Shown here in pieces: positions 8,586 through 60,071 of a stretch of 64,000 nt of DNA; position 1 is the first letter of the stretch, and every line of letters begins with the position of its first letter. Under the pieces are notes generated by a model. The model saw only the letters and a list, made by a program, of their open reading frames with translations. It was not told the DNA's origin and searched no databases. The DNA comes from Chloranthus sessilifolius (Eukaryota; Streptophyta; Magnoliopsida; Chloranthales; Chloranthaceae), in the NCBI GenBank assembly GCA_021018995.1, contig CM037593.1:35725810-35789809 (forward strand). Reading direction: 5' to 3'. The position numbers were made by a program, and so were the translations under genes.

Positions 8586-8795
8586 GATACTGATCAGTCA
8601 TAGAATTTGCCATTTTATCACCCTTAACTTAGTGATGCTAGGACTTAGTTTGCTACTAATAAGTTAACGATGTACATATATTAAGGACAAATTACAAAAG
8701 AGAGCCAAAGTGTTAATATTCGTCAAAATGAACTGAAAAAGCAGTAAAAAGATGATTGATCGAAAGAAGACGATTCGCCGCTGATGAAAGCCAAG

Positions 8796-8997
8796 AGATC
8801 TTAATTTATGATTGTGCGCTAAAGCTGAAGACGAAAGAAAGAGAAAAGCTAAGAAATCGTAATTTACGATTCTTCAAAAGATGATTCTTCAAAAAGCGAC
8901 AAAGGAATAAAAAGTGATAAAAGAAAGCGATCGTTTGTTATAGAAAATTGTCCAGTAAGAAAGTTGTGTGAAAATGAGAAATCGTAATTTACGATTG
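8796..8997. repeat. E1 palindrome array, AATCGTAATTTACGATT
   Basis: The word has 8-base arms AATCGTAA/TTACGATT around one base. There are full copies near 8852 and 8973 and a decayed copy near 8800; a related half-site region surrounds 8880. The array is repeated in the 3' LTR at about 14918-15118. Each arm carries a CpG. The decayed copies differ partly by C-to-T or G-to-A changes. Confidence 0.8.
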
Positions 8998-9308
8998 TAT
9001 AAAAGGAAAAGCTTTCCCTCTGTTACATCTGCTGTTGATGATCACATGAGTGAAAACTATCACCGCCATGCAACAAATTAGAAGATCTCTGAAATTAGAA
9101 GTTTGGTGAATCACGGATCTAAGAAGATTGATGAAGATAAATTCTGAAGATCTTTGCTGCTATTACCAAGATCAATCCGGAAGCATATCAACCGTTTGAA
9201 AGCAAGGAAGAATAAAATTAGGAATTAGAGTTATATTAGGAATCTTTTAACTTTAGTAGTTTCTTCTATTAGAATTAGAAGTCTTTGTAAAGTGACTCCT
9301 TATGATCT

Positions 9309-9316
9309 ATAAATAA
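9309..9316 (+). promoter_or_regulatory. TATA box in E1 5' LTR
   Basis: TATAAATA lies within CTATAAATAAGAGAGCCC and is kept in the 3' LTR at 15424-15431. The position, about 720 bp into the LTR, fits the U3/R boundary. Confidence 0.75.
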
Positions 9317-10083
9317 GAGAGCCCGGTGTAGGAATAATCGATCGAAGAATTGCATCATCAATTGACGACTGAGGTTCGATTTTCTTCCAATCAGTAGTAT
9401 ACAATAGTTAGAGTACATTAGATATCAGAGGTTTCTCAAGAGCAATTGACAACTACTATTGGGTGTTGAAGATTAGTGTAGATATCCTAGTTTTACAGAA
9501 GTAATTGACGACTACAGCTAAGGGGTGAAAGATATATTTACTTTACTTTCTAGTTTAGATTTTATTTGCTTTATTTACTACTTTGTAAACATCTTCAAGT
9601 TTTAATTTGAATTGAGACTCAAGTTAGAATTTGCAGATTAGTGTAACGGTTTTTACTTTTCCATCTTCAATTTTTATAGAATTTGATTGACACCCAAATT
9701 TTAGGAGATTGTTGATTAGATTAAATCTGTGTTAAGGAATTTTAGTTTTGATTGAGGCCCAAATTCTAGAAGACTGTAATACAGTGTAACGGTACTGTTT
9801 ATTTTTATAAATATCTGATTGTTGAAGATTGGGATTGGCGACCTCAATCTAAAGAATGAGGATTAGGATTTATTTTATGCACCTTAGATTAAAAACTCAT
9901 TCTTTATTCATATTTCTCAAGTAGTTTAGAACCTTAAAAGATAAATATAAACTTTAAAATAGAAATATAGATAAGATAACACTTTCTCATGGGAATGATC
10001 CTATACTAGCTCTACAATTTTCATTGTGCGCTTGCAATAGGTTAAGACTTAATTAGATACACATAAGTAGCTGACCAAGTTTT

Positions 10084-10101
10084 TAGCGCTGCTACCGGGG
10101 A
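10084..10101 (+). other. E1 primer-binding site
   Basis: TAGCGCTGCTACCGGGGA lies 6 bases after the LTR end. It resembles the Athila primer site TGGCGCCGTTGCCGGGGA with three differences. The same site in E5 reads TTGGCACCGTTGCCGGAGA on the minus strand. Confidence 0.8.
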
Positions 10102-10376
10102 AGTAATTTATCTTTCTGTTTATATTTTCATTTTAAAAATAAATATTTATCTTTCTCTTTTTATATTTTTTTATATTTTCAACTTTCTTTGATCACTTCT
10201 TAATCTTTCGCAGGTTTATTCGGAGTGACAACTAAGAGTCTCAAGTTCTCCTGATCAGTGAAGCTTGAAGCTCAGATTCATTTTCTCTCCCTGCTTTCTA
10301 GCATAAAAATCATATAAAACTAAACCAAAACTAGACATATTGTATCTTAGCCAACCTGCCTTGATTCCAAATCAAT

Positions 10377-11515
10377 ATGGATATGGCAGGAGTAAATCAA
10401 AGTAAGCCTAAAATGATGGGAGAATACTATGCATGGACACTTCTTACACTATCCCCATGTATTCAAACCCCTATTGCCAGTTATGAGGCTTTCAAACTTA
10501 CGTCGAATATGCTTCAAATACTTCTTACTTTTTCACAGGCTGATTGAGGAAGACCCCCAAAGGCATTTAAATAATTTTATATAAATGTGTAACATTATTC
10601 GAATCAAAGAATTGACAAGAGTACCCATTCGCTTGAGGCTATTCTCATATTCTCTTAGAGAGGAGGCAAAGTAGTGGCTACACTCTTTACCCCGAGATTT
10701 GATTGCTGATTGGGAGGGATTAAAATGCAAATTACTTATGAAGTACTTCCCAATGTGCAGAACGAATAGAATCCGACACCTTATTTTAACGTTCCATCAA
10801 TTTTCGGATGAACCTCTTCAAGAGAGCTGGAGTCGCCTCGAGGATCTTCTCTATATGTGCCCTCATCATGGGGTTGCGAAATGGCAAATAGTGCTCACTT
10901 TCTATGAAGGATTAAATGAACCAAATAGGCATATGGTTGATGTTTCCTATGATGGTATGTTTTGTAATTTAATAGCAGTAGATGCTTGGGAACTCTTTGA
11001 GACCCTTAGCAAAGAAACGGTGCAACACGATGCACCGGGTGAGATTGATTTGGAGACTTCTAAGAATATACCCTCTATGCAAGGAGGATTATATAAATTA
11101 AAGTCAATGATGAAAGGTCTTCTGAACCTAAAGCTTTGTAAAGGAAAAATTCAACCTCTGGTGGGTACAAAATCGCACCCAACATCTGGACAAGGTAAAG
11201 CCTGTGGTCCTAACCATGGACCAACTCAATCAGTTTCCCAACCTCCAACTCTTCCTCCTTACCTCACAGGAGCCCATTACTACACTGCTAATGAGGATGC
11301 CTTGCTGTAAATAGCAAACAGCTGGGTGCAATATAGCCACATCCAGACAAAGTTACTCAATCACCTGCGACAATCTATCGGAAGGTTGAAAACTCAAATT
11401 GAGAAGCTAACCCTTTTGGGAGGAGAGAGTAACGTACTACCTTCACATGCAGTTGGTACATCTAGAGGATGTATGTTTATGGGAGGCACATCAACTCCCT
11501 CTATTTTTAATTAAT
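10377..11515 (+). pseudogene. E1 gag, Athila type, broken
   Basis: The region opens with ATGGATATGGCAGG and includes a recognisable capsid-type gag core (FPMCRTNRIRHLILTFHQF, ESWSRLEDLLYMCPHHGV, FYEGLNEPNRHMVD). These match the Retrotrans_gag pattern in E5 (ESWERMKDLLQKCPHHEV, FYQGLIEPSQSTVD). After the core comes a Gly/Pro/Gln-rich tail and a short C-terminal block with LRQSIGRLKTQIEKL, the usual Athila gag end. It would form the particle shell. There are several breaks. The homologous gag of E5 is on the other strand at 56886-57866. Confidence 0.82.
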
Positions 11516-12960
11516 TCCCTCTAGAACCTGTCGAACTACTGACTCACCCGTAGCAAACACTTAAAATTTATGTATATAATATTAGCAAAAGAGTATTCTA
11601 TGATCTATGGTATGTAAAAGTCCAGTCAATCGTAAAAATCTCTTTTAGGTCACAATCACTTAAAGACGTATGGAGTTACAATTGCAGGTGATTCGTAGAC
11701 TCAAATCGTAGTGAGTATGATTTAAAGCGTCAATGAGTCTCACTTTTGTCCTATAGAATTGGAAATGACAATTCTAGGAATAGGCGATTCCAGTGGTTTG
11801 TCTTATCAGTTACATTGGAATTCAGACCCATTAAATTTATAAGGGAAACAAACAAACAATGCATTCAAGACTACCACTTCCCAACTACCCTAACCTAGAA
11901 ACCTACACATCAACATTTACTTCGAAGTGACAATTCAAAGCCGAGTCTCTTCCCTATAAATCCATACCCATTCATAAACCAACTCGTCTTTTTTGTCTTC
12001 CACCTTCCATACCTAAAACCCAATGACGGAAGAGCATAACTAGAGCGATTTAAGTAAGAGACTTGACAAAATTCTCGAAATACATAGAGCTGAGCTCCTA
12101 GCTGCAGAAAAGAAAGTAGAAAATCTGAAGCGCCAGCACTTATTCAAGATGCTGAATCGTCTACTAAAATTATCCTTGACCCTAAACCTAACCCAAATCC
12201 AACACCATATGCCAAGAACCCATCTTCCCCCACTTCCTGACCTTTACACCATTACAACCCACCCCGAATGTAAACTCCCATATGATGATGGTAGCTTGAG
12301 CAGTCCCTCGCCACCCCTCTCCATTGCTTATCTTCTCCCTTCACTTTCCCTACATTCCCTTTACATAGTCTTCGCAAGGGAGTAGTATAGGTGACGGGTG
12401 ATCTGGAGATGTGTTCACTTCCTCACCCTTTGAAGCACTCCCCGTATGACATTGCATTTCTTCTAAGGAAGACCTGTTATGTGCTCAGTTTGGGGGATGC
12501 AAGATAAAGAAGGGCACAAAGGAAAGTGTTTCGACATGGTGACCCTACCAAGGTGTGGATACTCCTTTGGTAGGAAGGGATGAGAGACTCTGATTGAAGG
12601 TGGTTAAAGCCGAGGACCGATCTTTATCGAAGATTTCTTTTCGGGTGTTGCTGCCAGTGTCATAGTTTAGTGTGGGTCTAGATTTTTCTTAGGTTTAATC
12701 CTTTATGTAAACTTCTCTTTATCTCATGTAAATATTTTGTTCAATATATATGATAATTTCTTCTAACCATTTTTTATTACTTCTAACTATTTCTTTATAG
12801 AATAAATTTTTTGTTTATATCGGAGTACTTTCTCCTAAAGTTTAGGGGGAGGATTTTTGAATATTTTTACAGATCATAAACCCGATAACTGAATAGCACC
12901 ATTAAGGTAATATTTTTTTTTCTGTGTCCCCTGTTTTGAACAATGAGGACATTGTCCTAT
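11516..12960 (+). pseudogene. E1 second transcription unit: internal promoter plus small coiled-coil ORF
   Basis: Downstream of gag, 11630-11790 holds words related to the E1 palindrome (AATCGTAG, GGCGATTCC, GTGATTCGTAG). A TATA box follows at 11955-11960 (CCCTATAAATCC), then a C/T-rich leader and an ATG at 12024. The frame contains SKRLDKILEIHRAELLAAEK, a likely coiled coil, then a Pro/Leu/Ser-rich stretch to about 12385. The layout copies the internal promoter plus accessory ORF of E5, but no YPRLVRLFY signature was seen. Near 12963-12977 a second polypurine-like run (AAGTTTGGGAGGGGA) follows a GAGGACATTGTCC block typical of Athila elements. The ORF is broken and its function unknown. Confidence 0.5.
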
Positions 12961-12977
12961 TTAAGTTTGGGAGGGGA

Positions 12978-14698
12978 TACACAACGTTTTGTGTATATTA
13001 GAATATTAGTTTAAATTAGTTTAATTTTTCGTTTAAATTTTATCTTATTTTACAAAAAAAAAAAAAATAATAATTTAGATTCGTTAATCATTATATGCAA
13101 AGTATGATAGAAATTTTTTTCCTGAAAACTTTACAATCCATCATAGCAAAAGTTCAACATTCAAAATAAAATAGTTGCAATTCATGTATAGCACCTTTGA
13201 ACATTGTATTTGATGAATGTTTGAAACTATATGATTAATCTGAACTGTAATATTTAGATTATAGTTTCAAAATTATAAACCAGTGAGATCTTGAACTTTT
13301 ATCCTCTTTATATTTTGAGAGAGACTATTTTATTCAAGCATAAATTTTTTTGAACTTCTACTAATAAATCTCATATTACTGAACTTAGAATCAAGATATT
13401 ATGTGATTATGATAATTTATTTCTTTAGAACTATCTATTAAATATATCAAAACAAGGAGATATCCATACTAGCAAATCGTGAAAATGACCAAAGGCCATC
13501 TTTTGATTAAACTAGAGCCAAAAAGTCAAAATCCCAAAAAAGAGTTTATCTTTTGAACCTATATTAGAAGCCTGAAACCAAATTTCTTTGTACCAAATAT
13601 TTTATAAACCTTTAACCATATGTACTACCCAAATCTTTCTACCTTTAACCTTTATAATTTCTGAGAATCTAGAATGGAAAAAAGGGAAGAGGGAGTGAAA
13701 GGAGTAAACGCTTAACAGATAAGGGATCTGCTAAAAAAGGTACAATAGAGAAGAAATACAATCATATGAAAAAAATATGAGAAAAAAAAAGGAATTTGCA
13801 AAACAAAAAACCAAAAAAAAAATAGCGAAAAGCTTCTCACTGAGAAAAAGAAAAGAGATTTACACAAGAAAACAGAAAAGAAAAATGGGAAGAAATCATC
13901 CAACTTTTCAAATACTTACTGAAGCAAAAAAGAAGGAAAGAAGAATAAGAGAAGGAAGAACTAAATTCTCAGAAACTTTTGAACCCTATCTGCCTTTCTT
14001 TGAAACTTTTTTAACCCAAAGCCCCATTATAAGCCGAAGGAAAGACCTTTGTGATTTACGATTTACAAAAGTATGAGTCTAGTAGAGATGTATGAAATAG
14101 ATACTACGAATGAATGAAAAATCATATGATCAGGATTGATTATCTATTCCATGAGATTTACTTTCTGAGTTGATTATCCTTTGAAATTTATCGTACATAT
14201 CATAGTGAGAGAACCAAAAATTTTGATATTTTTTTGACAGTATGCCAGTAGTGGGAGTTTAGATAAAAATATTTTCTAAATCTACAGTTTAGAGAAAAAT
14301 CTATGATGAATAAACTTTTCATGGATATGCACACACTCCACGCTGTATAGAATTGAAATTGCTGAGTTTTGATCAAGGATAATTATTGTGATGGAAGGTA
14401 AAAGTGAAAGATTTAGAATTTTTGAAAATCATACCAAACATATGATGATTAATTTAACCAGTAATATAAATTTATTTCTTTATGAAAAGTATTTTGAAAA
14501 ATCCAAAAATATTTGACGTTTGTACGTAATTTCACTGAAAACCTTCAGGAGACTATAACTCCTCCACTAGGGATCACCTAGGGGTTTAAAGACTTGTTGC
14601 ATCTGCTAAATGCAATCATGCTTCCTACGAAAGTGGTATTTAAATTCATAGTTTTAGATATTTTATGTTTCCTTGTTTGCTAGGGACTAACAAAACTT
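12978..14698 (+). other. E1 3' non-coding spacer
   Basis: This is A/T-rich sequence with long homopurine stretches (13670-13960). Long apparent frames there are Lys/Arg- or Phe-rich and are composition artefacts. The last 60 bases (GCTAGGGACTAAC and AAACTTAAG) match the usual approach to the Athila polypurine tract. Confidence 0.7.
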
Positions 14699-14711
14699 AA
14701 GTTTGGAGGTG
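14699..14711 (+). other. E1 polypurine tract
   Basis: AAGTTTGGAGGTG directly precedes the 3' LTR start TGATCAGTCA, the expected place for plus-strand priming. Confidence 0.8.
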
Positions 14712-16185
14712 TGATCAGTCATAGAATTTATAATTTTATCACCCTTAACTTAGTGATGCTAGGACTTAGTTTGCTATTAATAAGTTAACAATGTGCAGAT
14801 ATTAAGGATAAACTGTAAAAGAGAGCCAAAGTGTTAATATTTGTCAAAATGAACTCAAAAAGCAGTAACAAGATGATTGAGCGAAAGAAGACGATTCATC
14901 ACTGATGAAAGCCAAGAAATCGTAATTTACGATTGTGCACTAAAGCTGAAGACGAAAGAAAGAGAAAAGCTAAAAAATAATAATTTATGATTCTTTAAAA
15001 GATGATTCTTCAGAAAGTGACAAAGGTATAAAAAGTGATAAAAGAAAGCGATCGTTTGTTATAGAAAATCGTCCAATAAGAAAACTATGTGAAAACGAGA
15101 AATCATAATTTACGATTGTATAAAAGGAAAGCTTTCCCTCTACTACATCTGCTGCTAATGATCACATAAGTGAAGACTATCACTGCCATGCACCAAATTA
15201 GAAGATCTCTGAAATTAGAAGTTTGGTGAATCACGGATCTAAGAAGATTGATGAAGATAAATTTCAAAGATCTTTGCTAATGTTACCAAGAACAATCCAG
15301 AAGCATATCAACCATTTGAAAGGAAGAATAAAATTATGAATTAGAGTTATATTAGGAATCTCTTAACTTTAGTAGTTTCTTTTATTACAATTAGAAGTCT
15401 TTGTAAATCGACTCCTTATGATCTATAAATAAGAGAGCCCGGTATAGGAATAATCGATCGAATAATTTCAGCATCAATTGACGACTGAGGTTGGATTTTC
15501 TTTCGATCAGTAGTGTACAATAGTTAGAGTAGATTAGATATCCGATATTTCTCAAGAGAAATTGACAACTGCTATTGCTGAAGATTAGTGTAGATACCCT
15601 AGTTTCACAGAAGCAATTGACGACTGCGGTTGAGGGGTGAAAGATATATTTACTTTGCTTTCTAATTTAGATTTTATTTACTTTATTTATTGCTTTGTAA
15701 ACATTTTCAAGTTCTAATTTGCGTTGACGACTCAGATTGGAATTTGCAAATTGGTGTAAAACTTTTTACTTTTTCCTCTTCAATTTTCTAGAATTTGATT
15801 GATGCCCAAATTTTAGGAGATTGTTCATTAGATTAAATCTGTGTTAAGGAATTTTAATTTTTTATTGACGCCCAAATTCTCGAAGACTGCAATACAGTGT
15901 AACGATATTATTTATTTTTATAAATGTCCAATTGCTGAAGATTGGGATTGACGACCTCAATCTGAAGAAGGAGGATTAGGATTTATTTTATGCACCTTAG
16001 ATTAAAAAATTATTCTTTATTCATATTTCTCAAGTAGTTTAGAACCTTAAAAGATAAATATAAACTTTAAAATACAAATATAGATAAGATAACACTTCCT
16101 CGTGGGAACGATCCTACACCAGCTCTCCAATTTTTATTGTGCGCTTGCAATAGGTTAAGACTTAATTAGATACACATAAGTATCA
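14712..16185 (+). repeat. E1 3' LTR
   Basis: This is the copy of 8591-10077, ending AAGTATCA before the GATAC target duplication. It carries palindrome copies at about 14918-15118 and a TATA at 15424-15431. By eye it differs from the 5' copy every few dozen bases, which marks E1 as older than E2 and E4. Confidence 0.92.
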
Positions 16186-16190: not shown

Positions 16191-16793
16191 CCTTCCATTC
16201 GGCCATTAAAATCGTCACCTTATCTCTTGAAGATTGAAGCCCTAATTTGTAATTGTGGAAAAAAATGCACACAGGGTTCTTCACAGTAAAAAAGAGGAAG
16301 TAAGGGGTTTATAGGAAAATAAACGGATGGGTTGAGTGGAAGAACGGTTGGGATTACGGACGTTAGAAAAAGAGAAGGAAGGTAGGAGGGGAAAACTTAA
16401 TGGTTTTGAAAATGGGGTCGACATATCCTTATTAAGAATATATAGGTCCTCTTTTCAGTGACGACTTGCTGAGCTGGTCATCACTTGAGTTTTGACCTAG
16501 AATCGTAACTTGATTCTAGCTTTCAGTAAGTAAGAATCGCAATCATTGCGCGTCTGATAGACATAACGAAGATCAATCGTAAATCCATACGATTGTCCGT
16601 TATAATGTACAGTAGGTATAATTTACGATCTATCATTTTCCAATGATTTAGGTCGTATTGTAATGCCGAAAGAAAAAGAAAAATAAATAGTTTACATAAT
16701 TTACAATTGGTGCTACGGATGAGTCGGTAACCCGACAATCCAAGAGGTTTTCATATTTTTTTTGGGGAGGCAATTTCTCTTCCAAGAACACTT
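16191..16793 (-). promoter_or_regulatory. E5 segment: gag remnant, motif region and accessory-ORF promoter
   Basis: Read on the minus strand from 16793, a short gag-like remnant (FLEEKLPPQKKYENLLD) leads into a region with AATCGTAA/TTACGAT half-sites and a near palindrome CAATCGTAAATCCATACGATTG (16583-16604). After these come TATATATTC and TCCTATAAACC (TATA at about 16308-16314), a C/T-rich leader, and an ATG near 16222 that would begin the accessory ORF continued at 8585. The half-sites are the same words as the E1 palindrome, which fits their common family. Confidence 0.6.
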
Positions 16794-17183: not shown

Positions 17184-17401
17184 AGGCGTTAGATATTACA
17201 TACGCCCAGCCATTTTTGCCCCAGATTAGTCAGGCGTATATATTATATACGCCCGCCTATTTTGGGGAAATTTTGGCCGGGCGTATATAATATATATGCC
17301 CAGTATAGGTGGGACCCACCACGGGTTTCATCTACCCAGGGCTCCCCTGTTTTTGATGAAATTTACTATTCCTAAATCGGGCGTATATAATATATACGCC
17401 C
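17184..17401. repeat. E4 palindrome array in 5' LTR
   Basis: Four copies of a 21-bp palindrome with 10-base arms GGCGTATATA and its reverse complement around one A occur near 17184, 17233, 17279 and 17379, often flanked by extra paired G/C. The first copy is the most diverged. The same four are in the 3' LTR at 42902-43122. Four more lie in the leader at 29162-29329. Each arm carries one CpG. Confidence 0.9.
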
Positions 17402-17648: not shown

Positions 17649-20329
17649 TGTAATAACCCGAAAAAGCACGTCAAACGAGGACCTCGGGATCCGTGCCTGA
17701 TTGGTCTTAGGTTTGACCATGAGATAGTTCATTGATAAACTTATGGTGAGATGAGCGAATGTGATGTGTGAACCAGTGTAGAAGAGTGGAGAAATAGAGG
17801 AGTGTGTAGAGTGGCATACACTGATGAGTGTGTATGTGCTCCACACCGAGAAAAGAGATAAGATAAAAAGGGTTGAAAACCCTAACTTTCATGTTTTGGT
17901 GGTTGAGGGAAGTAAAGAAGAGAGAGAAAGAGAGAGGAGTAAGAGAGGAGTTATTGTGGGTGATTGGAAGAAGGATTCAAGCATTAAAGAGGCCGGAATT
18001 GACGCAAGGAATCCGTTAGAAACCAAAGCTGGAACCCTAGCCTTCCAACCCTAGATTTGAAATCAACTTGAGAGCTATTCAAGGTAAAATTTTCGTAAAT
18101 AAGATGCATAGATTATAGGGGTTAAGTTGCAGTAAAATGTGGGTTAAATCATAGGATAATGGCTTAGAAAAATAGAAGAAAAAGTATGGGAAAAGATTGG
18201 GAAGAACAGCTCGAAAAGGGCTGAATCTGACAATTTCGATTAATCGAAATTGGGTTTCGATTAATCGAAATTGGCCAGGAAGTTGAAGGGTCGGAGGACC
18301 CCGATTTCGATTAATCGAATTGAATTTCGATTAATCGACTTTGGATTTCGATTGATCGATTTGGGAATCGATTAATCGATCGAGAACCTCCAAAGTGGAC
18401 CCTGTGGTTAAAGGAAATGACTTGAGGAAAATTGGACTAATCGAAATGGGATTTCGATTATTCGATTTTGGTTTTCGATTAATCGATTTGGAATCGATTA
18501 ATCAACTTGTGAAACTCAACTGTTCGAACTGAGGGTCTACTTATGAAGAAGGATTTCGATTAATCGAAATTGGATTCGATTAATCGAATGAAAACTCAAT
18601 CGTCGAATAAAGGAATTTGCTTTATGAAGAAGAATTTCGATTAATCAAAATTGATTCGATTAATCGAATGAAAACTCATCGAACAAAGGAATTTGCTTTA
18701 TGAAGAAGAATTTCGATTAATCGAAATTGATTCGATTAATCGAATGAAAACTCATCGCTCGAATCGAGAATGGACTTTAGAAGGAGAATTTCGATTAATC
18801 GAAATTGTTTCGATTAATCGACAGATTCGATTAATCGATTTTGGAATTCGATTAATCGACTGTAGTAAACTATGTTGACTTTTGGTCTGACTTTAAGATT
18901 CTTGGGGGATCTTATACCTTCTTTATTGCATCCTTTGTGATGTGTTTCACCTGTGTTATGGTATCATAGGTGATACGTATGGAAGTGTGGACTAGTGCAC
19001 AAGGAGTCACGTGGGACCTTGATGCATTGATCAAGTGGAGACCTAAGGTAGGGAACACCTTGAACATGTACCTTATTTTACAAGAGCATGTATGTAGTGA
19101 TATAAATTTCCATTCAAATATTTTTACTGCTTAAAGAATTGTGAAAAGTGTGTGTGTGTGATATTCATAAGAGTAAACTAATGAGCCATCCCCAGGGGAT
19201 GAAGAAGTAAAGAGAAAAGAGCATCAGGTGTGATGCAAGTAAATGGATACATCCCAGGGATGTATCCAAGGATTGAATCATGCTTGATAGGGCCTAACTG
19301 ATATAAGATAGCACACTTACACGGTGAATAACTATATGTAAGGCACCGATATTTTTGTTATTTGAGGTTTGATAGGTTACCCCACCGACGTGGCGGGATA
19401 TCCACGACTGACACGGCAGGATATCCGTGACCGATACGGCGGCGAAACCGTAGGCCAGTGCGGAGGCTTATCCGTACATAGTAAGCACACCCTGTGTTGA
19501 TGAGATGTGAAACCCGCCACCAATCCCCGGGAAAGGGGCTTGGTACTATTGGTATTCCTGTGAATACATTTAAAACCGCCTATATAGATGACGATGAAGG
19601 GTATCTCGTCGGGCTCGATGCTATATTGCTCGGGATTATTTAAGTTGAAGTTTAAGTTTTGCTTAGGCCTTCTCAAAGATCATTCATGATTAACTAAAAG
19701 ACATGAGTAATCTACCAGTAATTGAAGTGTTTTTAACTGTTTTTCATCAATAAATGCATAGACACATCATGCATGCATATCATAGAATACATGTGAGTTA
19801 TATTTTATATGTTCAATTGTGTTCTGTTCCCTATTGAGCTAGGATGTAGCTCACCCTATAGACTATACGTCGCAGGTCCACTACTAGCAGCTGCCGAGGC
19901 TTCAGGAGACGCTGATCCTGGCGAGTCGGACCTTGCGACCAGCGAGGAGTTAGAGTCACCTCCAGAGGACTTCTTCTAGAGGACTCTGCTGTGCGACTTT
20001 GAGGAGTTTTAGTTGGAGATTGTACGGCTTGGTATGTCAAGCCTGGTTTTTGATTAAACCTTGTGTATATGGATATCAGAGTATTCCTTTGGGCGAACCA
20101 TCCATGATGATGGTTATCATCGATGGTTCGGATCGGTTCTCCCTTCATGCAGAGGCATGAGGGTAGAACTGTCTTTTGAGAAGTGTTTTTATGTAGATTT
20201 AAATTCCGCAAGTTGTTCTTATTTATTTTATGCTTGATATACCAGTGTTCCGTGCATAGTTGAGGGGCACGGTCAAGATGATCGTGCTGATGGCACGGGT
20301 TTCGGGGTGCCGAAATCCGGGCTGTCACA
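17649..20329 (+). repeat. E2 5' LTR
   Basis: It begins TGTAATAACCCGAAAAAGC. A TATA-like GATAAAAAGG near 17866 is followed by a leader (ACCCTAACTTTC) and a GT donor-like CAAGGTAAAATT near 18081, so the palindrome array at 18236-18860 may fall in an intron of the leader. A block of GGATATCC words with CACGGCGG (19381-19450) is shared with E3. It ends GGCTGTCACA. Confidence 0.95.
18236..18860. repeat. E2 palindrome array TCGATTAATCGA in 5' LTR
   Basis: About 15 exact copies of the 12-bp perfect palindrome occur, with several one-base variants, often as close pairs separated by AATTGG- or TTTGG-type linkers. The middle part has a longer period of roughly 85 bp that includes ATGAAAACTC and AAGAAGAATT. 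The 3' LTR array is at about 25478-26120. Each copy ends in TCGA, so there is a CpG in each arm. Confidence 0.95.
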
Positions 20330-20331
20330 GT

Positions 20332-49016: not shown

Positions 49017-49020
49017 CGGA

Positions 49021-49265
49021 CAAATCGACCGGTCGGTTTTATATGTAAAACACTTGCTCGTCGATTTCGATCGATCAATTCTCAAATCGACTGGTTGGAT
49101 TCCAAAATCGATCGGTCAGTTTTATTTTTGATCGGTCGATTTTCATAGGCTTTCTTTTAGTTCAAAAACTGCTCTCCGTTTTCACCAATTCGACCGATTG
49201 TGCTGTTTTCGATTGGTTGAATTTCAAAATCGACAGATTGGTTTTATTTCGACTGGTCGATTTGA
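49021..49265. repeat. E3 internal palindrome array
   Basis: About eight to ten copies of the TCGACCGGTCGA family, many decayed (CGACTGGTTGG, CGATCGGTCAG), sit directly upstream of the accessory TATA box and just after the end of pol. It is the same word as in the E3 LTRs. Confidence 0.82.
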
Positions 49266-49445
49266 ACAGGAAAGTCCCAAATTGTGTTTTTCACTTCAGA
49301 TTTAGTGTAGGTTCTCACCTAGCTAGATATAGCTCCTCATACTGCATTAACCATCTTCCTATACAAAATTCTCATCTTCTATAACGCAATCATTAATGAT
49401 ACATCAAAATTTTCAATGAAAATAGAGTTACAAGCACACTCCCTC

Positions 49446-50800
49446 TCAACTCTCATTGAACAAGTGAGGGTATTGTTCCTTAATTTCCGCCTCGTGCTCC
49501 CAAGTAGTCTCTTCAACTAGATGATTCTGCCACTTGATAAGCACTAACGAAATACTCTTCATATGCAAAATTTGTTCCTTCTGATCAAGTATTTGTATTG
49601 GCTCTTCTATTAACGTCATATTCTCCTCAATTTCGATCGGTTGATCACCCAAAACATGAGTCGAATCTTTCACATATTTCCGGAGCATAGATACATGAAA
49701 CACATTATGTAGTGCAATCCTGTAAGCGACCTCACCTACTCTGCCTAAAACTTCAAAGGGTCCAAAATAGTGTGGGCTTAACTTTCCCCACTTTCCAAAC
49801 CTCATCACACCCTTCATGTGTGAGATCTTAACGAATACATGATCGCCAACTTCTAAATCCATACTCGTTCTCTTGTTATCAGCGTAACTCTTCTACTTGC
49901 TCTAAGTTGACTTGATTCTTTCTCTAATCAAATAGACAATCTCGTCATTGCTTTCAATCACTTTCGAACCTAACACAAACTTTTCTCCGGTCTCTTCCCA
50001 ATTGATCGGTGATCTACATCGCCGTCCATATTATGCCTCATAAGGTGCAATATCGATACTCGTCTGAAAACTGTTGTTGTATGCAAACTCGATCAATGGT
50101 AAATGTTGATCCCATGATCCCTGAAAATCAAGCATACATGCTCTGAGCATATCTTCTATGACCTGATTTACCCGCTCTGTTTGTCCATTCGTCTGTGGGT
50201 GGAATGCAGAACTGAAATCTAACCATGTACCCATACCCTCTTGAAACTTTTGCCAAAACTTTGACGTGTATAACAAGTCATGATCTGAAACAATACTAAC
50301 TAGAATACCATGTAACCGGATGATCTCTTTCATGTACATCTCTACAAGCCTCCCTGCCATATACATAGTATTGTACGACAAGAAGTTTGCTGACTTGGTC
50401 AATCGGTCAACAACTACCCAAATGGAATTGTGTCGCTTCGTCATCCATGGTAATCCCACTATGAAATCCATAGAGATTAACTCTCATTTCCATTCTGATA
50501 TAGGTAGAGGTTGCAACAAACCTGTCGGATGTTTATGATCCACTTTCACTTGCTAGCATACTAAACACTTTGACATGTATTCAGCTACATCCTGCTTCAA
50601 ACCTCTCCACCAGTAGTTCTTCCTCATGTCTTGACACATCTTGGTGCTATCAGGGTGAATTGCATATTTAGACTTGTGGGCTTCATCTAAGATAGTTTGC
50701 CATAGGTCGACATCAATTAGTATGCATAGACATCCCCTGAACAAAAGTGATCCATCCTCCTTGATGGAGAAATTTGGTCTAGTGCCATCAAGCACACCCT
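49446..50800 (-). pseudogene. E3 integrase and chromodomain-like tail
   Basis: Zinc finger (HKSKYAIHPDSTKM, MSKCLVC) at about 50553-50700; catalytic core (MDFIVGLPWM, SIVSDHDLLYTSKFW, AFHPQTNGQTERVNQVIE) at 50031-50471. The C-terminal part (LSPHYFGPFEVLG, VFHVSMLRKYV) and chromodomain-like tail (LIKWQNHLVEETTWEHE) are at 49446-49862. It is a close homologue of the E2 integrase. Broken at several points. Confidence 0.9.
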
Positions 50801-51049
50801 ACCTGATCTTTCCTAACTCGACACCTTTCATCTGTAGTTCCTGAATTTGGTTAAAGATCGTCGGTCGAATAGTAATGTTAGCCAACAAGGCCCCTGAAGC
50901 TTGTACTTCGATCCTTGTATCATACAAAGAGCGATCCTCTAGCAGCTTCCATCAATGGATCCCCATGATAGGGCTAGATAGTCGAACTCTCCTGACTCAA
51001 ATCATCTGCCACATGATAAGGCTAGATAACTTCCATCTACAAAGAGAGA

Positions 51050-52333
51050 TCCTCTAGCCGAACTCTTCCAACTCAAAGCATCTGCCACAACGTTAGCCTT
51101 GCCTTGGTGGTACTGAATGGAGCAATCATAGTCCTTGAGAAATTCCATCCATCGGCGTTGCCTCATATTGAGCTCTTTCTATGTAAATAAGTATCTAAGG
51201 ATTTTATGATCTGTGAATATCTCAAAGGTCTCACCGTATAAGTAGTGTCTCTAAATTTTCAACGCAAAAATCACCGCTGCTAGTTCTAAATCGCGTGTTG
51301 GGTAATTTTTCTCATGGTCCTTAAGCTGTCTCGACCCATAAGCAATCACCTTCCTATTCTGATTAAGCACACAGCCTAAACCACTGTGTGAAATATCGAA
51401 GTACACCGCAAACCCTCCACTGCCTGAAGGTATAGCCAACACAGGTGTTGTAGTTAACCTCTTCTTGAGTTCTTGAAAACTCCTCTCACAATCATCAGTC
51501 TACTCAAACTTCTCATTCTTCCTTATAAGCTTTGTGAGTGGTCCTGAAATCTTTGAAAATCCCTCTATAAACCGTTTGTAGTACCCAGTCAGACTAAGGA
51601 AACTGTGAATCTCAGTCACAGTCTTTGATTGTTCTCATTCTACTACTGCCTCAATCTTTCCTGGATCCACTGTAACACCATCCTTTGAGACTACATGTTC
51701 CAGGAAACTGACTTTCTCTAACCAAAACTCATACTTACTGACCTTTGCATATAATTGGTGTTCACACAATATTTGTAGAGCAATCCCCAAGTGCTCTTCA
51801 TGCTCTTCCTTGGATTTAAAGTAGATGAGAATGTCATCTACGAACACTACTACACAAGTGTCTAAGTGTGATTTAAACACCCGATTTATCAGATCCATGA
51901 ATGGCGTTGGTGAATTTGTCAATTCAAACGGCATCACCAAAAACTCATAGTACCCATATCATGTCCTGAAAGTCGTCTTCTGTATGTCCTTGGCCTTAAC
52001 TCTCAACTGATGATATCCAGATCTTAGGTCGATCTTGGAAAAGAATCTCGCACCCTGTAACTGATCGAACAGATCATCGATCCTGGGCAAAGGGTATCGA
52101 TTCTTAATAGTTAACTTGTTCAGCTGATGATAGTTGATGCATATTCTTATCGACCCATCCTTCTTCACAAACAAGATCGGTGCTCCCCAAAGAGACACAC
52201 TAGGCCTTACAAATCCTTTATCTAGGAGTTCTTGTAATTGGTCCTTCAACTCCTTCAACTCAATTGGAGCCATTGGATATGGTGCTTTATATACTGGCTC
52301 CGTACCCGAAGTTAAGTCAATGGCGAATTCCAC
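51050..52333 (-). pseudogene. E3 reverse transcriptase and RNase H
   Basis: Reverse transcriptase blocks are [51 protein letters not shown] and the catalytic [13 protein letters not shown]. RNase H follows with [19 protein letters not shown] and [20 protein letters not shown]. This is the standard chromovirus order. Broken at several points. Confidence 0.9.
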
Positions 52334-52892
52334 TTTCTGATGGTAACCCTAGCAATTCTTCTAGAAACACGTCTTCACATTCACATGCAATCAGAATCTT
52401 AGTGATAACATTTTTCTCTTCCTTGTGCTCCTTCAAAAAAGCTAAGTACCCATTGCATCCCTTCTTTATCAAATGTTCAGCTCTGACTACAGAGATAAGC
52501 GGTATAAAAGTCGACCACATTCCTAGAAATCTGAATGATCTCCTCTTATTCGGTCTAAAGGTAACCACCTTTCTCCGACAATCAACGATCACATTATGAA
52601 TAGATAACCAATCCATGCCAAGGATTACATCGAATCCTTGCATATCCATCAGGATCAAGTCGACCACTAACTCATGATCCTCATAATCTCTGACAACAAC
52701 CCTAACTGATCGGCATATAGTATCAGTATTGGCCGCATTCCCCATTGGAACTGACACTTTCAAAACAAAATCCAAGGTCTCGAGGATGACCTTTACTTTC
52801 CTTGCAAACTGAGGTGTAATAAACGAGTGGGTAGACCCTCGGTCTATCAACACTCTTGCTTCATAACAAAGGTAATCGCCCTCACCATACAT
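52317..52892 (-). pseudogene. E3 protease
   Basis: The aspartic protease region contains EARVLIDRGSTHSFITPQFA and MQGFDVILGMDWLSIHNVIVDC, both typical of chromovirus pol. The second motif, ILGMDWL, is the conserved end of the protease. Confidence 0.87.
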
Positions 52893-53029
52893 TTGTCAGG
52901 TACCTATATTTAATCAATTTACTTATGCATCAAAAGTTAGGCATGTAAGAAATTTGATTTAAAACAACTTCCTAATCTAGATATAGCTTCTCTATCTAAA
53001 GGTAAAATCAATGCAATAATTTAATTAAA

Positions 53030-54423
53030 AGAATTTTCACCTTGGATGATGTCGTTACTATTCTGGGCATCCTGGGCTATTACGGCATATGCTCTCCCTT
53101 GTACCGTAGGCTTCTTTGTCTACAACGGTGTAGGCATAGGAGCTGATGCCGTCCTCTTCTTTCTCATCTTTGGGCAATCCTTGATCATATGCCCATTTTT
53201 CCGCACTTGAAGCATCCACCTATACCCTGCCTGCAATCAGACATTTTGTGAGACTTGCCACATCTGGCACACGTCTCAGCTAGGGTAGATGATGCTGCTC
53301 TAGAGAAACCCTGAGTAACTGATACTCCTATAGTGGTCGGAGGGCTCTCATAACGAATCGATCTCACAGAAGTAAGCATAGGTGGCCTAGACTCCTATAG
53401 TGGTCGGAGGGCTCTCATAACTGATCGATCTCACAGAAGTAGGCATAGGTGGCCTAGAGTAACTGATCTGATGTGGTCTGCAATACTGTGTCTATGTAAA
53501 CAGCCTCTGAATAGGTGCCATAAAATGCGGCTTTTTATTCACCGATTTGTAGTTACTTGAGACTCCTTAACCCGTCTTTCCCTTATTTTGCTAGTCCCTT
53601 CTTTTGTAAATGCCATCAATTGCCTTCTCAGCAACCAGCACCTTCCCCATCACTTCTGTGTAAGTTTCCAATTCAAATATCGTAATCCTATCACGTAGAA
53701 TCGGCCTCAATCCATTTTCAAATTTATTGGCCTTCATGAGTTCTGTGGCCACATAATCTGGAGCAAATCATGATAATCGTATAAACTTTGTACCGTACTC
53801 CCTAACAGTCATTGCTCCCTGCTCCAAGGTCATAAACCTTGCTGCCATCTAATTTCTTAACTATTTTGGGAAGTACTCTTTGTTGAATACCTCAACAATT
53901 CTCTCCATGTGCATAACCCATCTGGGTGCTCTTGCTCTGTCCTCAATAATACCGACTTCCACCAAGGGTCGGCATCTCCCTCTAGTTGAAATGAAGCCCA
54001 ACTCACTTTCTCTACCCCAGTACATGGCAGTCTCTGTAAGAGCTTCTCAGCCTTATTCAGTCATTTTTTTGCCTCCAATGGATCTATCTGACCATAAAAG
54101 CTAGGAGGTCTCAAATTTCTGAACTCAATAAACCCCGAATGATATGGCACAACAGGTGTAGGTGGTGTCTGCAAATGATTATTTACTATTAAAAATGCTG
54201 CCTACTAAGCCATAGTATTTGCCATTGCTTCCATAGTCTGCATCATCCTTTGTCTTTTGTCTCTTTCTTCATTTCCTTCTTGGGTCCTCACTTCCAGGAT
54301 ACTTCCTTCTGAAATCCTTCTATTACCCAACGAAAATCTATTAGAAGTAGTAGGAAACTCATTCCCACTCCTCAAATTCCTATCATGGCCGCCTCTTGGT
54401 CAGCCCCTTCCTCTAGTAGACAT
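53030..54423 (-). pseudogene. E3 gag with zinc knuckle
   Basis: It starts MSTRGRG, like E2 (MSARGRG). The capsid region is much decayed. Zinc-knuckle Cys/His residues are seen in ARCGKSHKMSDCRQGIGG and CFKCGKMG at about 53185-53280. A near-exact short duplication, CTCCTATAGTGGTCGGAGGG, is visible at 53324-53343 and 53391-53410. Broken at many points. Confidence 0.8.
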
Positions 54424-54517
54424 GACACTCTACAACATGAAACCAAAGTTTTATTAGCAGAAGGTCCCGATACTCTGACAAAATCCAAGACTTGTTAGAA
54501 ATTTCTAAAGAAAATAA

Positions 54518-54530
54518 TGCTTTGATACCA
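54518..54530 (-). other. E3 primer-binding site (initiator Met tRNA)
   Basis: TGGTATCAAAGCA on the minus strand directly follows the 5' LTR end at 54533. E2 has the same site with one different base. Confidence 0.88.
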
Positions 54531-54532
54531 AC

Positions 54533-56880
54533 TATGAAAACCCGGATTTCGACACCCAAAAACCCGTGTCATCGGTACGGCCCTTAAGGCTGAACCCCTT
54601 ATACAAATGGAACACGTGGTACATCCACGCATAAAGCAGAACAAAGCATAAATCTAATCAAGCAGATAGAGTCATCATAAGAAATAAATCTCCATTTCTA
54701 TACAATGACATAACCAAAACATATCAAAAGACTATTTTGATCCCATGCAACTCACATGGCTAACGGAACTGATCCGAGCCATCAGTGACACATGACCGTC
54801 ACAATACATGACTCTCAAAAAGAATACACTACACGACATATACAAATATCCTAACAAAAGCAACAGGCCAGACGTACCAAGCCGTACAAATCTAGCTCTC
54901 AAAATACACAAGCGTAACACAAATATACTAGAAGAACTCCTCTAGAGGGGGCTCAGTCTCCTCCTCAAGAACGTACTCAGAGTCCTGAGGATCAATGTCC
55001 TTAGAACCCGCCACTGCCTCTGAACTTGTGACGTATAGTTGAGGGGTGAGCTACATCTAAGCTCAATAGGGAAACATAAGCAAGATGCATATTATGATGT
55101 CAAACATATATTTTATGGTACAATCGGAAGCATGTTTATCTTACTGACAATTACAAGTTAAAAACATTTAAATTGACTAAAACACATATCAGATGCAAAG
55201 CTTCAAACATACTTGTCATAATTACCCGAGTTGTTCTCTTAACGTACACACGCACTTAAGCGAATCATGTAAATAATCTCTCGAGCAAATATAAAATCGA
55301 GAGCCGTATATTATACCAATGGAATACCCCAAACATCATCGTTCAATGAACAATTCACATGAAGTTTCCCAAGCCCCTTCGAATTAGCAGACTTGTGCCG
55401 AATGAAATATTTTTACGGATTGGAAACCAAAGAACAGGTATCCCGCCATACCGGAGAACAAGTACGGATATCCCGCCGTACCGGTCACGGGTATACTGTC
55501 GCGTCGGTAGGGTTTTCAACACACAAACTATTAATCAAGTGCAAAAGCTACATATAGTTATTCACCATGTATTGTGATAATTCATATTAGTTCTGATTTC
55601 GATGTTCACCCACACACACATTGTATTTCTGGTATCACACACACCTATAATTCATTCTTATTGATATCACATGCTCACTTATCACATCTCATACTCACAC
55701 ACATGATTGACAAAACTACACGTTCTTACACACACCTATCATATTATAAAATCATGCTACCACAATCAAATGTACATGTTGCATAGTTTTCCCTACCTCA
55801 CACAAAGTCACACTTAATTCCTTTAGCTCAAGTTAGCTCTTCTAGCCTACATTTCAAGCTCCTACCTAACATACATGAATTCATAAACAAAATGTCTAAA
55901 ATGACGTAAAATAGAAAGATACAAAGTCTCCCTAAAGTTCTCATTTCAAAATAAAACAAAGCCCTGAAGCTGTCAAAATCGACTGGTCAATTCCCAAATC
56001 AACCGGTCGGTTTTTTGAATTGACCGGTCGATTTTGATTCGACCAGTTGCCTTCCTTCAGAAACCTTGACCTCTGGCACACGAATACCGATTAGTCGATT
56101 TCCTAATCAAACGGTCGGTTTTTCAAAATCGACCGGTCAAATGGTCGATTTCTCCAAAACTCATTTTACACGCTCACTGTTTTTCATAAATCGACCGGTC
56201 GTGTTGTTTCCAATTGGTCGGTTTTGTGCTAAGGCCTTTAGGTCTCATAATGTGACAAAATCGATTAGTCGATTTTCCAAATCGACAGGTCGGTTTTGTC
56301 AGATTTCACTTAGCTTGGGTTCGAACTTCCCTAACCCATTTTCCTTCCAATTTTTACCTTTCTTCTTCAAATTTTTCACCCATATACATAAACTAAACTT
56401 ACACATCTATTCGCTATAATTTCACACAATTTCTTACATTTAAATCGATTGATTCCTCGATCCAAGCCTTCTCACACAACTAGGGCTTTGTAGCTTGAAG
56501 CTTGGATTTCACACGATTCAATTTCGCAATTAATACATAGCCTTAACTATTCGTACGCACACTCACTCTATCGTATTGATTGCTCTTCCCTCCTCCTCTC
56601 TCTCAATAGCTCTCTCAATTACCAATTCACAATAGAAATAAATTCTCCTAATGTTTAATTTCCTTATATCTAAACTTAGGCTTAGGTATTAAGCACTTAC
56701 ACCATAAATAGGTATATATGAAATCATCCAAAGGTCCACAACAACCTCACTTAGCCTTTTCCACTTAACACATAACCCAACATAACTTACCTAATTATTT
56801 TCACAAAGTAGGGTACATGACCAGTTGGACACGCACACCGAGGTGTATTGTTCATAGGTCAAAATTTTCAGGATATTACA
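54533..56880 (-). repeat. E3 5' LTR
   Basis: This is the partner of 44457-46802, with the same blocks and a palindrome array at 55977-56296. The edge next to the primer site has drifted from the TGTCACA end seen in the other copy. The difference between copies is moderate, so E3 is older than E2. Confidence 0.95.
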
Positions 56881-56885: not shown

Positions 56886-57866
56886 AAAACCATAATTGAA
56901 TCTAGGTTGGTTCCTCCATGACAGGTTATAAGTGTTCCTATAATCCTCCCTCTGAAAATCCATTACTTGTTCATTTTCCACTACGTCCTAGTATGGTGTT
57001 ACAGTTGGGTTTTCAGTAAAATTGTGAGTTTGACTATTAGAGTAGCTTGCTCAGGAGCTATCCAGAGTGCTAGTCTTGGCTATCATTAATGTCGCGAATT
57101 GATCTTCAAGAGGCAGAATTTTTACACTCATGTCCTCCTCCTTCTTTACTTTATCTTTGTTGATATCGTAAAGTCCATCCCTCGCAAGCGAGGTGTGACG
57201 AGTGACGTCTAGATCAAATCTAAGCAGAGCCTATTTCTACTTTGAGTTATTAATCAGTTTCTCAAATAAGTTCCAGGACTGTTGGCCATTCTGAGTCATA
57301 AAGGCTCCTCCACTTACGACATCAACTGTAGACTGGCTAGGTTCAATCAACCCTTGGTAGAAACTTTGTGCTATCGACCAATTTGATACCTCATGATGAG
57401 GACATTTCTGTAACAGATCCTTCATCCGTTCCCAGCTCTCATGAAATAATTCTCTTGGCTTTTGCCTGAAGTCTTGAATCGCTTGGGGAATCTGGTCAGT
57501 TTTACTAGTTGGAAAGTACTCACCTAAAAACTTGGACTGCAGTTCCTCCCATGTGGTAATACTTCTGATAGGTAACGAAATTAACCATGCCTTCGCCCTA
57601 TCCTTGAGAGAGAATGAGAACAAATGTAGTTTTACGACATCTTTGTTGGCAGTCGATGGATGTAATACTGTGCAAAGCTCTATGAAGTTCCTCAGATGTT
57701 GGTAGGGATCTTCTCAATCAAGCCCATGAAAGGTCGGTACAGATTGAAGTGTATGGTGCTTGATTTCATAATTTTGACCCACAAGCACCTCTAGTATAAC
57801 TATACAAGAAGACTCGGTCAATCCTTTAGGGCTAAAATGTGCCTGGATTGACAAATTGTCAGCCAT
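56886..57866 (-). pseudogene. E5 gag, main part, Athila type
   Basis: On the minus strand it begins MADNLSIQAHFSPKG. The capsid core is LFSFSLKDRAKAWLISLPI, TWEELQSKFLGEYFPTSKT, FHESWERMKDLLQKCPHHEV and SFYQGLIEPSQSTVDVVSGG, followed by a tail with NTYNLSWRNQPRFNYGF, a common Athila gag tail. It continues at 44456 beyond E3. It would build particles. Broken, but the core is one open frame of 128 residues. Confidence 0.85.
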
Positions 57867-58221
57867 GGGTAAGGATTCTCTTACGAAATTTTGGCTTGAT
57901 ACCAAATTACGTTGGAGCGTCCTTTCAATTTATGGATCACACTTGAAGAAATCTAGTCTTTGAGATCAAGTGTGATGCAAAAAAGAAAACTCTATTTTTA
58001 CTATTTTTAATTTTATTCAGTTTTTATTTTAGAAAGCAGGGAGAGAAAACAAATCTAAGCCTCGAGCTTCTCTGATCAAGGGAAGTTGAGACTCTGAATC
58101 GTCGCTCCGAATAAACCTATGAAAGATTTAAGAAGTGATCAAAGAAAATTAAAAATATAAAGAAATATAAAAAGAGAAAGATAAATACTCATTTTCTTAA
58201 ATTAATATATTAAAATGCTGA

Positions 58222-58240
58222 TCTCCGGCAACGGTGCCAA
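58222..58240 (-). other. E5 primer-binding site, Athila type
   Basis: TTGGCACCGTTGCCGGAGA on the minus strand follows the LTR end ACA at 58246 after a short AGTTT spacer. It differs little from the standard TGGCGCCGTTGCCGGGGA. Confidence 0.85.
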
Positions 58241-58245
58241 AAACT

Positions 58246-58521
58246 TGTTAGCGGCTTGTTTATGTCATCTAATTAAGTCTTAATATACTGTAAGTGCACA
58301 AGGGAAATTATAGTACTAGCAAAGGATCGTTCCCATAGAGATAGGTTATATTATATTAATTTAATTTTTTGAAAACTTATGCTTATCTTTTAAGATCCTA
58401 AACTACTAGAGAAATATGAACAAAGAATTGTTATTTAATCTAAATTTGTAGAAAATAACTCCTAATCTTCAAACTTCAGATTGTAGTCGTCAATCACATT
58501 CTTCTGTTATCAGATATTTAT
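58246..58521 (-). repeat. E5 5' LTR, inner end
   Basis: About 275 bp of LTR matches the last part of the E1 LTR (block with TTCATATTTCTC, AGTAGTTTAG and TTAAGACTTAATTAGAT). It is cut on the right by the E7 LTR. The rest lies outside the window. Confidence 0.82.
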
Positions 58522-60071
58522 TGTGCAACCGTGGGATTCGTGACGGTCCCGTCGCAACGACGCGCTCCGGTCCACACCAAAGGCTCTTGGGTAGGGGCTT
58601 CGGTTATCGATCGGGAAGGTGTTAGGCACCCGACCAACCCGCTTAACGCGGTCTCTACTAATGGCCAAAAATAAAATGATATAAAAGCAAAGAAAATAGC
58701 TTCCTCTTGCCCAAATGGGCTTGGAATCCTATTTGTGCCCCTCCGTTCCTACCGAAAAATCGGCGGCGTAACGGCACAAATGAGAGGATGGAGGGAGCTA
58801 GAAAGAGATAGGAGAAGAAAGGGGAGAGCCGGAGCCCTCAGGCCTTTGTAGCACCGTAGAGGAGCCTTGCGTGGCTTGCTTTGATGAGCTTTCGAAGGCT
58901 TGAATGATAGAGAAATGGGTTCTAACCACTTAAGACTTAAAGCTAAGAGGTAGGGGATGGAGGCTAGGGGATCACACACACCTAGGCTAAGGGTTTTGGA
59001 TGCAAGAATAAGCTTGAAATGAGGTTTTAGAATTCTGGAATTTGGATGAAAATAGTGCACAAAAGGGAGGAAGAACTTCTCACTTTGAGCTCTTTCTCTC
59101 TTAAGCAATTTTCTCAACCCTTAAACCAAGGGGTGGGGGGCTCTATTTATAGGAAATGGGTGGGTTAGGGGGCCACTTAGATGCTAATTGTGTTTATCAA
59201 TTAGTTAATCTTGTATCTAAGGATTCTTAGGGTTTTTGGGGCCTTGAAAGGTGTGGGAAGGTCCTCCAATGGTGGATGATGGGGTGAGGCCTTAAGCCAC
59301 TTAAGGGGTTGCCAATAGGTGAGGAATGGGTGCAACAGGACTATCAAAACACACCTCAAAAGTTGAGGTGGTCAACAAGTCAAACCCCCAGCATGAATTT
59401 TGGGGTAAAACTGAACAGTTACTGTTCATATGCCTGGCGCAACTAATAGTTGCGCCAGGCAAATGTACAGTAAAACCTTTATTGCGCCAGGCAAATGTAC
59501 AGTAAAACAGTGTTGCACAGTTCCCTGGAAGTTAGCCTCGCGAGGGGCTGGGGGACCCATTTATGCCTGGTACAACTATTAGTTGCACCAGGCCATTTCT
59601 GGGGGAAAAATACCTGGTGCAATTATTAGTTGCGCCAAGCAAATCCAGGGGGAAAATGGCCTGGCGCAACTATTAGTTGCGCCAGGCAAAAATCCTGAAA
59701 TTCTGCCTGATTCTTAAATGGACATAACTTTTGATGTACAACTCCAATTGGGGTGATTCTTGGCTTGTTGGAAAGCTGGAGAAGTCCTCTTTCCAATGGT
59801 ATTTAGTTTGATATCAGTTAAAGGCCTCAGCTAGTCCTGGTATATCACTCTTCATCCATTGCCCGGGAAGGTTAGGTTTAGGGTTCGAAATGGGTTCTAA
59901 GGGTTGGGATTGGTTTCTAAAGGTTCGGGGTAGGTTCCTAAGGGGTCTAGGGTGATTCTTAAGGGTTTAGGGTGATTCTTAAAGGTTCCATTCATACCAT
60001 CAAAAGCTCAGAATTGTACCTCTCTTAAAAGGTGTTTCGATCGGGCCTTGGGCCAAATTTGGGTGTCTACA
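58522..60071 (-). repeat. E7 3' LTR
   Basis: It is 1.55 kb, starting on the minus strand TGTAGACACCCAAATTTGG and ending CCCACGGTTGCACA. Tandem AAGAATCACCCTAAACCCTT words lie near 59880-59995, palindromes at 59432-59687 and TATAAATAG at about 59143-59151. The end block with ATCGATCGGGAAGG is shared with E4. The frame at 58749-59117 is not a recognised gene. Confidence 0.92.
59432..59687. repeat. E7 palindrome array
   Basis: This is a 29-bp palindrome with 14-base arms GCCTGGCGCAACTA and its reverse complement around one base. Full copies are at 59432-59460 and 59659-59687, slightly decayed copies at 59564-59592 and 59612-59640, and a half copy at 59480-59492. Each arm has one CpG in its GGCGCA core. 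The array lies about 285-540 bp upstream of the TATA box on the minus strand. Confidence 0.92.

Follow-up and report, generated by a model that had tools for sequence, protein, structure and literature searches.

What reads the short palindromes that recur in arrays across a nest of long terminal repeat (LTR) retrotransposons in Chloranthus sessilifolius? The stretch analysed here, called the window below, is 64 kb of a 2.17-Gb genome and consists of LTR retrotransposons of plant-like types nested in one another. Five of them, designated E1, E2, E3, E4 and E7, carry arrays of a palindromic word. In the Ty3 families E2 and E3 and their relatives, to judge from sequence, the arrays may be operator sites for a DNA-binding protein acting as a symmetric dimer, a reading to which we give an even chance, and the most likely candidate for this protein would be the PF20167-like accessory protein of the element itself.

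All five words are far more frequent in the whole genome than their reversed-word controls: TCGATTAATCGA of E2 (241,617 vs 55), TCGACCGGTCGA of E3 (3,173 vs 33), AATCGTAANTTACGATT of E1 (2,730 vs 1), GGCGTATATAWTATATACGCC of E4 (8,531 vs 0) and GGCGCAACTAWTAGTTGCGCC of E7 (9,336 vs 0). Within the window, two even-centre and two odd-centre words recurred as perfect palindromes, with cores of at least three different letters being counted, so that the AT-only core of E4 was left out; dinucleotide shuffles gave no even-centre word in 19 of 20 runs (one in the other) and no odd-centre word in any of 20. Both the existence of the arrays and their enrichment over shuffled sequence, on which an earlier interpretation of the window (the sequence-only reading) depended, were thereby confirmed.

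E2 uses one word at two separate places. The 49 exact copies of TCGATTAATCGA in the window are confined to three arrays: one in the 5' LTR (18236-18859; 15 exact copies and 5 sites with one or two mismatches), one inside the element (22163-22809; 19 exact and 3 with one mismatch) and one in the 3' LTR (25481-26115; 15 exact and 3 with one mismatch). The internal array is followed by a TATA box (22819-22829, plus strand), 9 bp past the last palindrome, and then by the accessory open reading frame (ORF; 23047-24574, plus strand), which is frame-shifted in the window copy. E3 is laid out likewise with variants of its own word, the TATA box of its accessory gene (49007-49016, minus strand) standing 8 bp past the last site. 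The placement of both internal arrays directly upstream of an accessory TATA box, as first proposed, is therefore accurate. A second short palindrome, with the core TGTTCGAACA, also recurs among the sites of the E2 LTR array (25845 and 25928 in the window; loci L046 and L053).

The arrays are present in other E2 copies as well, as the sequence-only reading required. Thirty E2-family loci, one being the window's own copy, were taken from 150 scored matches among 41,786 candidates, and 29 of them had 7-21 exact words upstream of the accessory ORF. A set of 20 longer loci, including 4 that overlap the set of 30, showed the word in both the LTR and the internal arrays in 19 cases; the stretch fetched for the remaining locus, L053, ends short of the upstream part. 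In 12 of these loci the start of the LTR is visible and assigns the downstream array to it, and in the rest the assignment follows from position. Exact sites numbered 7-22 per array in these longer loci, and the copy number differed among copies. The gap between palindrome and TATA box was 9 bp at 35 of 45 E2 loci, the other ten having gaps of 30 bp (three), 4 bp (two), 5 bp (one) or 26 bp (one), no array (two) or no TATA box within 80 bp (one). Of 525 close pairs of neighbouring sites, 521 had a spacer of 7-10 bp, and 132 distinct spacer sequences were counted. LTR-to-LTR copying alone cannot hold the internal array in step with the LTR array. Because the word agrees at two separate places within E2 elements and differs between families, we consider the accessory protein of the element the likeliest reader.

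The palindromes are also conserved within their own arrays. In nine ordered pairs of E2 copies aligned without gaps, exact palindromes had changed at 3 of 1,608 positions, compared with 67 of 2,809 in the remainder of the array and 121 of 1,758 in the 100-bp flanks; the pairs have common ancestry and are hence not independent, and the word was required to be exact in one copy, which should roughly halve the palindrome rate and still leaves a several-fold constraint. The corresponding rates were 0.5%, 4.0% and 8.3% in 59 pairs with at most 6 gap columns, and 0.9%, 7.4% and 8.8% in 157 pairs with at most 20. In the internal palindromes CpG decay was low; since non-CpG changes were low too, it is inseparable from constraint and lends no support to the methylation sensitivity that the sequence-only reading had suggested.

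The sites of the E3 arrays are imperfect. No exact copy of TCGACCGGTCGA, the word first ascribed to this family, was found in the window, so that part of the sequence-only reading needs correction. Twenty sites with at most two mismatches, decayed or variant, lie in the E3 stretches (10 + 4 + 6): ten in the 3' LTR array (45903-46217), six in the 5' LTR array (55979-56293) and four internally, three of the latter within the internal array at 49025-49260, which contains nine sites by a looser framework. The best centre is CCGG in the LTR arrays (10 and 6 sites) and only slightly so in the short internal array (3 vs 2 for TCGA). A search with the E3 accessory piece gave 150 scored places including itself, among 27,990 candidates, the others being 57-79% identical to it. 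We took the upstream DNA of 10 of these, picked for their spread of identity and mostly for long open frames. All 10 carried upstream arrays on an AAATCGA-N4-TCGATTT framework (core TCGA-N4-TCGA), which was absent from four of five control stretches and present as a single site in the fifth. The best palindromic centre was CCGG in six relatives and TCGA in three, with one tie, and the spacing was 19-22 bp in 48 of 87 cases.

The accessory protein itself appears, from profile comparison, to be a clear relative of PF20167 (Transposase_32) that falls below the threshold. The frame-shifted window copy of E2 scores 1.3e-5, under the curated cut-off, and open copies elsewhere are longer (454 and 495 aa at L014 and L018). 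The E3 ORF is in pieces (47714-48818, minus strand) and is 49.6% identical to the L014 protein across 228 aa. A scan of the two long proteins with hmmscan, up to an E-value of 5, returned PF20167 and DUF7015 only, with no DUF1985. The protein has a K/R-rich start and, in a low-confidence model, a helix-rich core. A third homologue, also in pieces, belongs to a further element, E0 (6500-8493, minus strand; tblastn 34% across 91 aa, 3.4e-7), into whose accessory gene E1 has inserted. A fourth occurs at L056 (26% across 185 aa), and the pieces scanned of the E0 and L056 homologues matched no Pfam family. E0 is split by E1, and a TATA box and loose dyads lie upstream of it on the far side of E1: in this region (16440-16640, minus strand), two dyads with 8-nt arms 6-7 nt apart are followed by TATATATTC, and no dyad was found that pairs at 7 of 8 positions around a 1-nt centre.

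If the accessory protein is the reader, it would dock, probably as a dimer, on sites that follow one another at intervals of about 20 bp next to its own promoter, which could amplify its own production, and in the LTR, where transcription of the genomic RNA might be switched on or released from silencing. The element would thereby label its DNA with a word that belongs to it alone. The sign of this effect, activation or anti-silencing instead of repression, is suggested by the position of the arrays and by the precedent of VANC, an anti-silencing system discussed below. A more specific proposal, which we put forward tentatively, is a VANC-like private-word system in LTR retrotransposons, in which the PF20167-like protein would read a dyad word at its own promoter and LTRs and keep only its own family active, the centre (TTAA, CCGG or TCGA) switching while the half-sites stay.

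Several observations weigh against the accessory protein as reader. The long E2 proteins reach 37.5 bits against the 45-bit curated cut-off of PF20167 (E 3e-9; profile positions 4-170 of 177). No DNA-binding domain was recognised in the protein and no convincing relative was found in PDB or protein collections; the structure models are poor (pLDDT 43.6 and 50.6), and no fold can be argued from them. At L021, one of the 30 E2 loci, no array lies within 1.5 kb. In a small LTR sample the non-CpG positions of the palindromes had changed at 6 of 79 (0.0633 + 0.0127), which is not low. The genome contains many copies of TCGATTGGTCGA, a word made of two different halves (969 + 1,013 vs 45 + 46 in the control), indicating that symmetry is loose in E3-like arrays, and a loose framework-plus-TATA pattern showed no genome-wide enrichment (333 + 510 vs 496 + 418). 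Among the 10 relatives, those with a TCGA centre are 57, 58 and 69% identical to E3, with CCGG loci falling between them, and no co-variation between protein and word could be made out. Finally, no accessory ORF was detected in E1, E4 or the in-window part of E7. The earlier proposal of sites for an element-specific DNA-binding protein is supported by the family-specific words, by their near-invariance in E2 while the spacers drift, and, in E2 and E3, by their presence in the LTR as well as beside the accessory promoter; it is not supported in the other three families. The arrays of E1, E4 and E7 may work in a similar way, with a reader that comes from outside the element, a weaker suggestion.

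The words of these families are not independent of one another. E1 (AATCG-TAAWTTA-CGATT), E2 (AATCG-ATTAAT-CGATT) and E3 (AATCG-ACCGGT-CGATT) have the outer half-sites AATCG/CGATT in common and differ in their centres, and E4 and E7 have GGCG/CGCC half-sites in common, which contradicts the sequence-only reading that the words are unrelated. The LTRs of E4 and E7 are 70-77% identical in matching blocks and carry their dyads at corresponding places with the same 47-bp spacing; the two families have different letters at 3 of 10 positions in each arm, every difference being mirrored in the opposite arm. CpG is indeed present in both arms of every named word, as had been claimed, but given this kinship the rule amounts to about two independent cases and not five. 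It is still notable, because of 1,116 palindromes that arose by chance in the shuffled window only 71 had CpG in the 6-nt arm. One recurrent core in E7, CAACTATTAGTTG, has no CpG.

Other repeats bear on the range of such words. A 249-bp tandem unit at 3259-3744 of the window has AT-rich dyads without CpG and so runs counter to the CpG rule, although it belongs to none of the named families. Another repeat, on the reverse strand of L040 (7563-7790), contains TCGCTCGAGCGA palindromes (three exact, two of them 22 bp apart) and adds a further centre on the TCG...CGA frame. A cluster resembling AATCGATCGATCGATT, a word with the TCGA centre, lies outside the E2 copy at L041 (5991-6470), and long dyads around ATCGATATCGAT recur every 66-70 bp, satellite-like, at L049 (7903-8050).

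In E1, E4 and E7 the arrays lie upstream of the LTR TATA box, at about 310-455, 280-500 and 285-535 bp, respectively, in good agreement with the 270-540 bp first estimated. The E1 word has three exact copies in the window, with two sites in the first LTR and three word-like sites in the second, where a fourth listed dyad is unrelated to it. The 5' LTR palindromes, AATCGTAATTTACGATT, are both exact (8855-8996), and two of the three in the 3' LTR (14918-15117) are decayed. A TATAAAA stands 1 bp past the last palindrome in each E1 LTR (8998 and 15119), a proximity that matches the accessory promoters of E2 and E3; the TATA box chosen earlier is about 310 bp further on. The E4 dyads are spaced at 47 and 100 bp in the 5' LTR (17233-17401) and at 47, 47 and 100 bp in the 3' LTR (42903-43117). 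A second array of the E4 word (29165-29327; four dyads spaced at 47, 47 and 48 bp) lies outside the matched LTR, in a stretch that may or may not be native to E4. The dyads of E7, a minus-strand element lying only partly within the window, are spaced at 47, 47 and 133 bp (59436-59683). A kinship of E4 with Retand elements, which carry TRP28 (PF04195) in an antisense ORF before the 3' LTR, was considered; the three longer minus-strand ORFs of E4 that were scanned had no Pfam match.

The main rival is a serious one that we nevertheless consider rather unlikely: the elements might have gathered arrays for a single family of dimeric host transcription factors, gaining tissue or stress expression, with the centres tracking host paralogues. 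Arrays for host factors in LTRs are a known theme. Here the arrays adjoin promoters and lie in LTRs upstream of the TATA box, the TCGA-N4-TCGA framework is common across families, and the arrays of E1, E4 and E7 come without a recognised accessory ORF. Yet the centre varies by family while the LTR and internal arrays agree within E2 and, more weakly, within E3, a pattern that would be less likely if one host site could serve any of the families. In our judgement, 7-22 exact sites per E2 array are also heavy for a plain enhancer.

Copy-number control, in which the accessory protein would occupy the arrays so as to repress its element or count the copies, is improbable. An operator-like position 8-9 bp from the TATA box would suit steric repression as well as activation, but more than 240,000 copies of the E2 word in the genome would argue against tight self-limitation over the history of the family. 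Still less probable is neutral tandem duplication, in which slippage multiplied a 20-bp unit and the palindrome is incidental. Tandem periods in the window include 20, 47, 76, 83 and 117 bp, and copy number varies, as such a process would produce; however, the palindromes are much more conserved than the rest of their own arrays, the same word stands at two places per E2 element, and the E4 and E7 dyads have kept their symmetry despite three differing positions per arm. An RNA-level role, through hairpins for dimerisation (the example given by the sequence-only reading when it offered such a role as an alternative), packaging or small-RNA production, finds no support and is the least probable of all: the dyads of E4 and E7, 21 to 31 bp long, could fold as hairpins and the internal arrays presumably fall within the genomic RNA, but the E2 word has no loop, its would-be loop TTAA is mostly kept, and changes at E2 sites, which are related by descent, keep G-U pairing about as often as they break pairing (77 vs 84, p = 0.64).

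The carriers of the arrays were identified as follows. E2 (17649-27578) sits within an E4 LTR, with a 5-bp target duplication, GTAAG, read by eye. Its plus-strand LTRs (17649-20329 and 24895-27578) are 95.4% identical, and the sole pol part seen in the window copy is an integrase piece (20497-21531, plus strand; PF17921, 4.9e-19; rve, 2.9e-5, under its cut-off) starting about 170 bp past the LTR, indicating that gag-pol is mostly missing. E3 is a minus-strand element spanning 44457-56880, with its 3' LTR at 44457-46802 and its 5' LTR at 54535-56880 (91.0% identity). Between them, a reverse transcriptase (RT) piece (RVT_1, 3e-8) precedes the integrase pieces, the order of Ty3 elements, and the integrase C-terminus has a chromodomain-like end (49449-49892, minus strand; SH3_Tf2-1, 7.2e-20; Chromo, 2.1e-4, under its curated cut-off); a C-terminal chromodomain would be expected of a Tekay-like chromovirus. 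E1 (8591-16185, plus strand) has gag as its sole recognised part, LTRs that are 90.4% identical across 1,481 bp, and a target duplication, GATAC, also read by eye.

The precedent invoked by the sequence-only reading, the VANC proteins of VANDAL elements, was well chosen. VANDALs are Arabidopsis Mutator-like DNA transposons with anti-silencing (Hosaka 2017, PMC5735166; Sasaki 2023, PMC10398659), and the available parts of these papers describe an additional gene, non-coding regions whose tandem repeats contain short motifs particular to each family, and fast divergence of the word among related families. The elements of the window likewise have, in their non-coding DNA, tandem repeats with a short motif of their own family. 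However, the carriers in the window are LTR retrotransposons, by their LTR pairs, the E2 integrase and the E3 RT and integrase, and not a Mutator-like DNA transposon; the words are CpG-containing dyad palindromes, unlike the YAGTATTAY given for VANC21; one array abuts a TATA box; and the present system is known from sequence. With no match to DUF1985, the domain of VANC proteins, and an LTR-retrotransposon carrier, it is not presented as a member of the VANC system. Unpublished VANC-DNA co-evolution was mentioned in the excerpted record of a 2025 meeting talk (PMC12859917).

Among retrotransposons, the nearest cases in the accounts at hand are the additional ORFs of sunflower Athila and Tekay, Retand TRP28 and Grande gene23. 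The Athila ORF lies on the 3' side of a Ty3 element and partially matches PF20167, whereas that of Tekay, also a Ty3 element, is placed 5' and resembles none of the known domains; the portion of that report available to us describes no arrays or motif for either (PMC11728184). Retand TRP28 is an extra gene with predicted DNA binding, accompanied by family-specific tandem repeats between pol and the 3' LTR, but its ORF is antisense, its domain is another one, and the repeats are described, in the sections available, neither as palindromic nor as LTR-shared (PMC11963269). Grande gene23 is an extra gene with its own promoter, according to the extract available (PMC7264820). A 2026 sunflower methylation study asks, without data in the part available, whether such ORFs shape the methylation of their own elements (PMC12844716). 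No report of arrays such as those described here was found in searches of an open-access library.

Many plant LTR retrotransposons carry extra ORFs, whose function is called an open question in the available parts of two accounts (PMC11728184, PMC7264820). An array at the promoter of such an ORF and again in the LTR supplies it with a specific target that can be put to the test, a single protein being paired with a 12-bp word that stands at two places. If the accessory protein is indeed the reader, sequence-specific self-recognition would not be peculiar to VANDAL DNA transposons and would have arisen in LTR retrotransposons too, and the TTAA, CCGG and TCGA centres would form a natural series of words for studying the co-evolution of protein and DNA.

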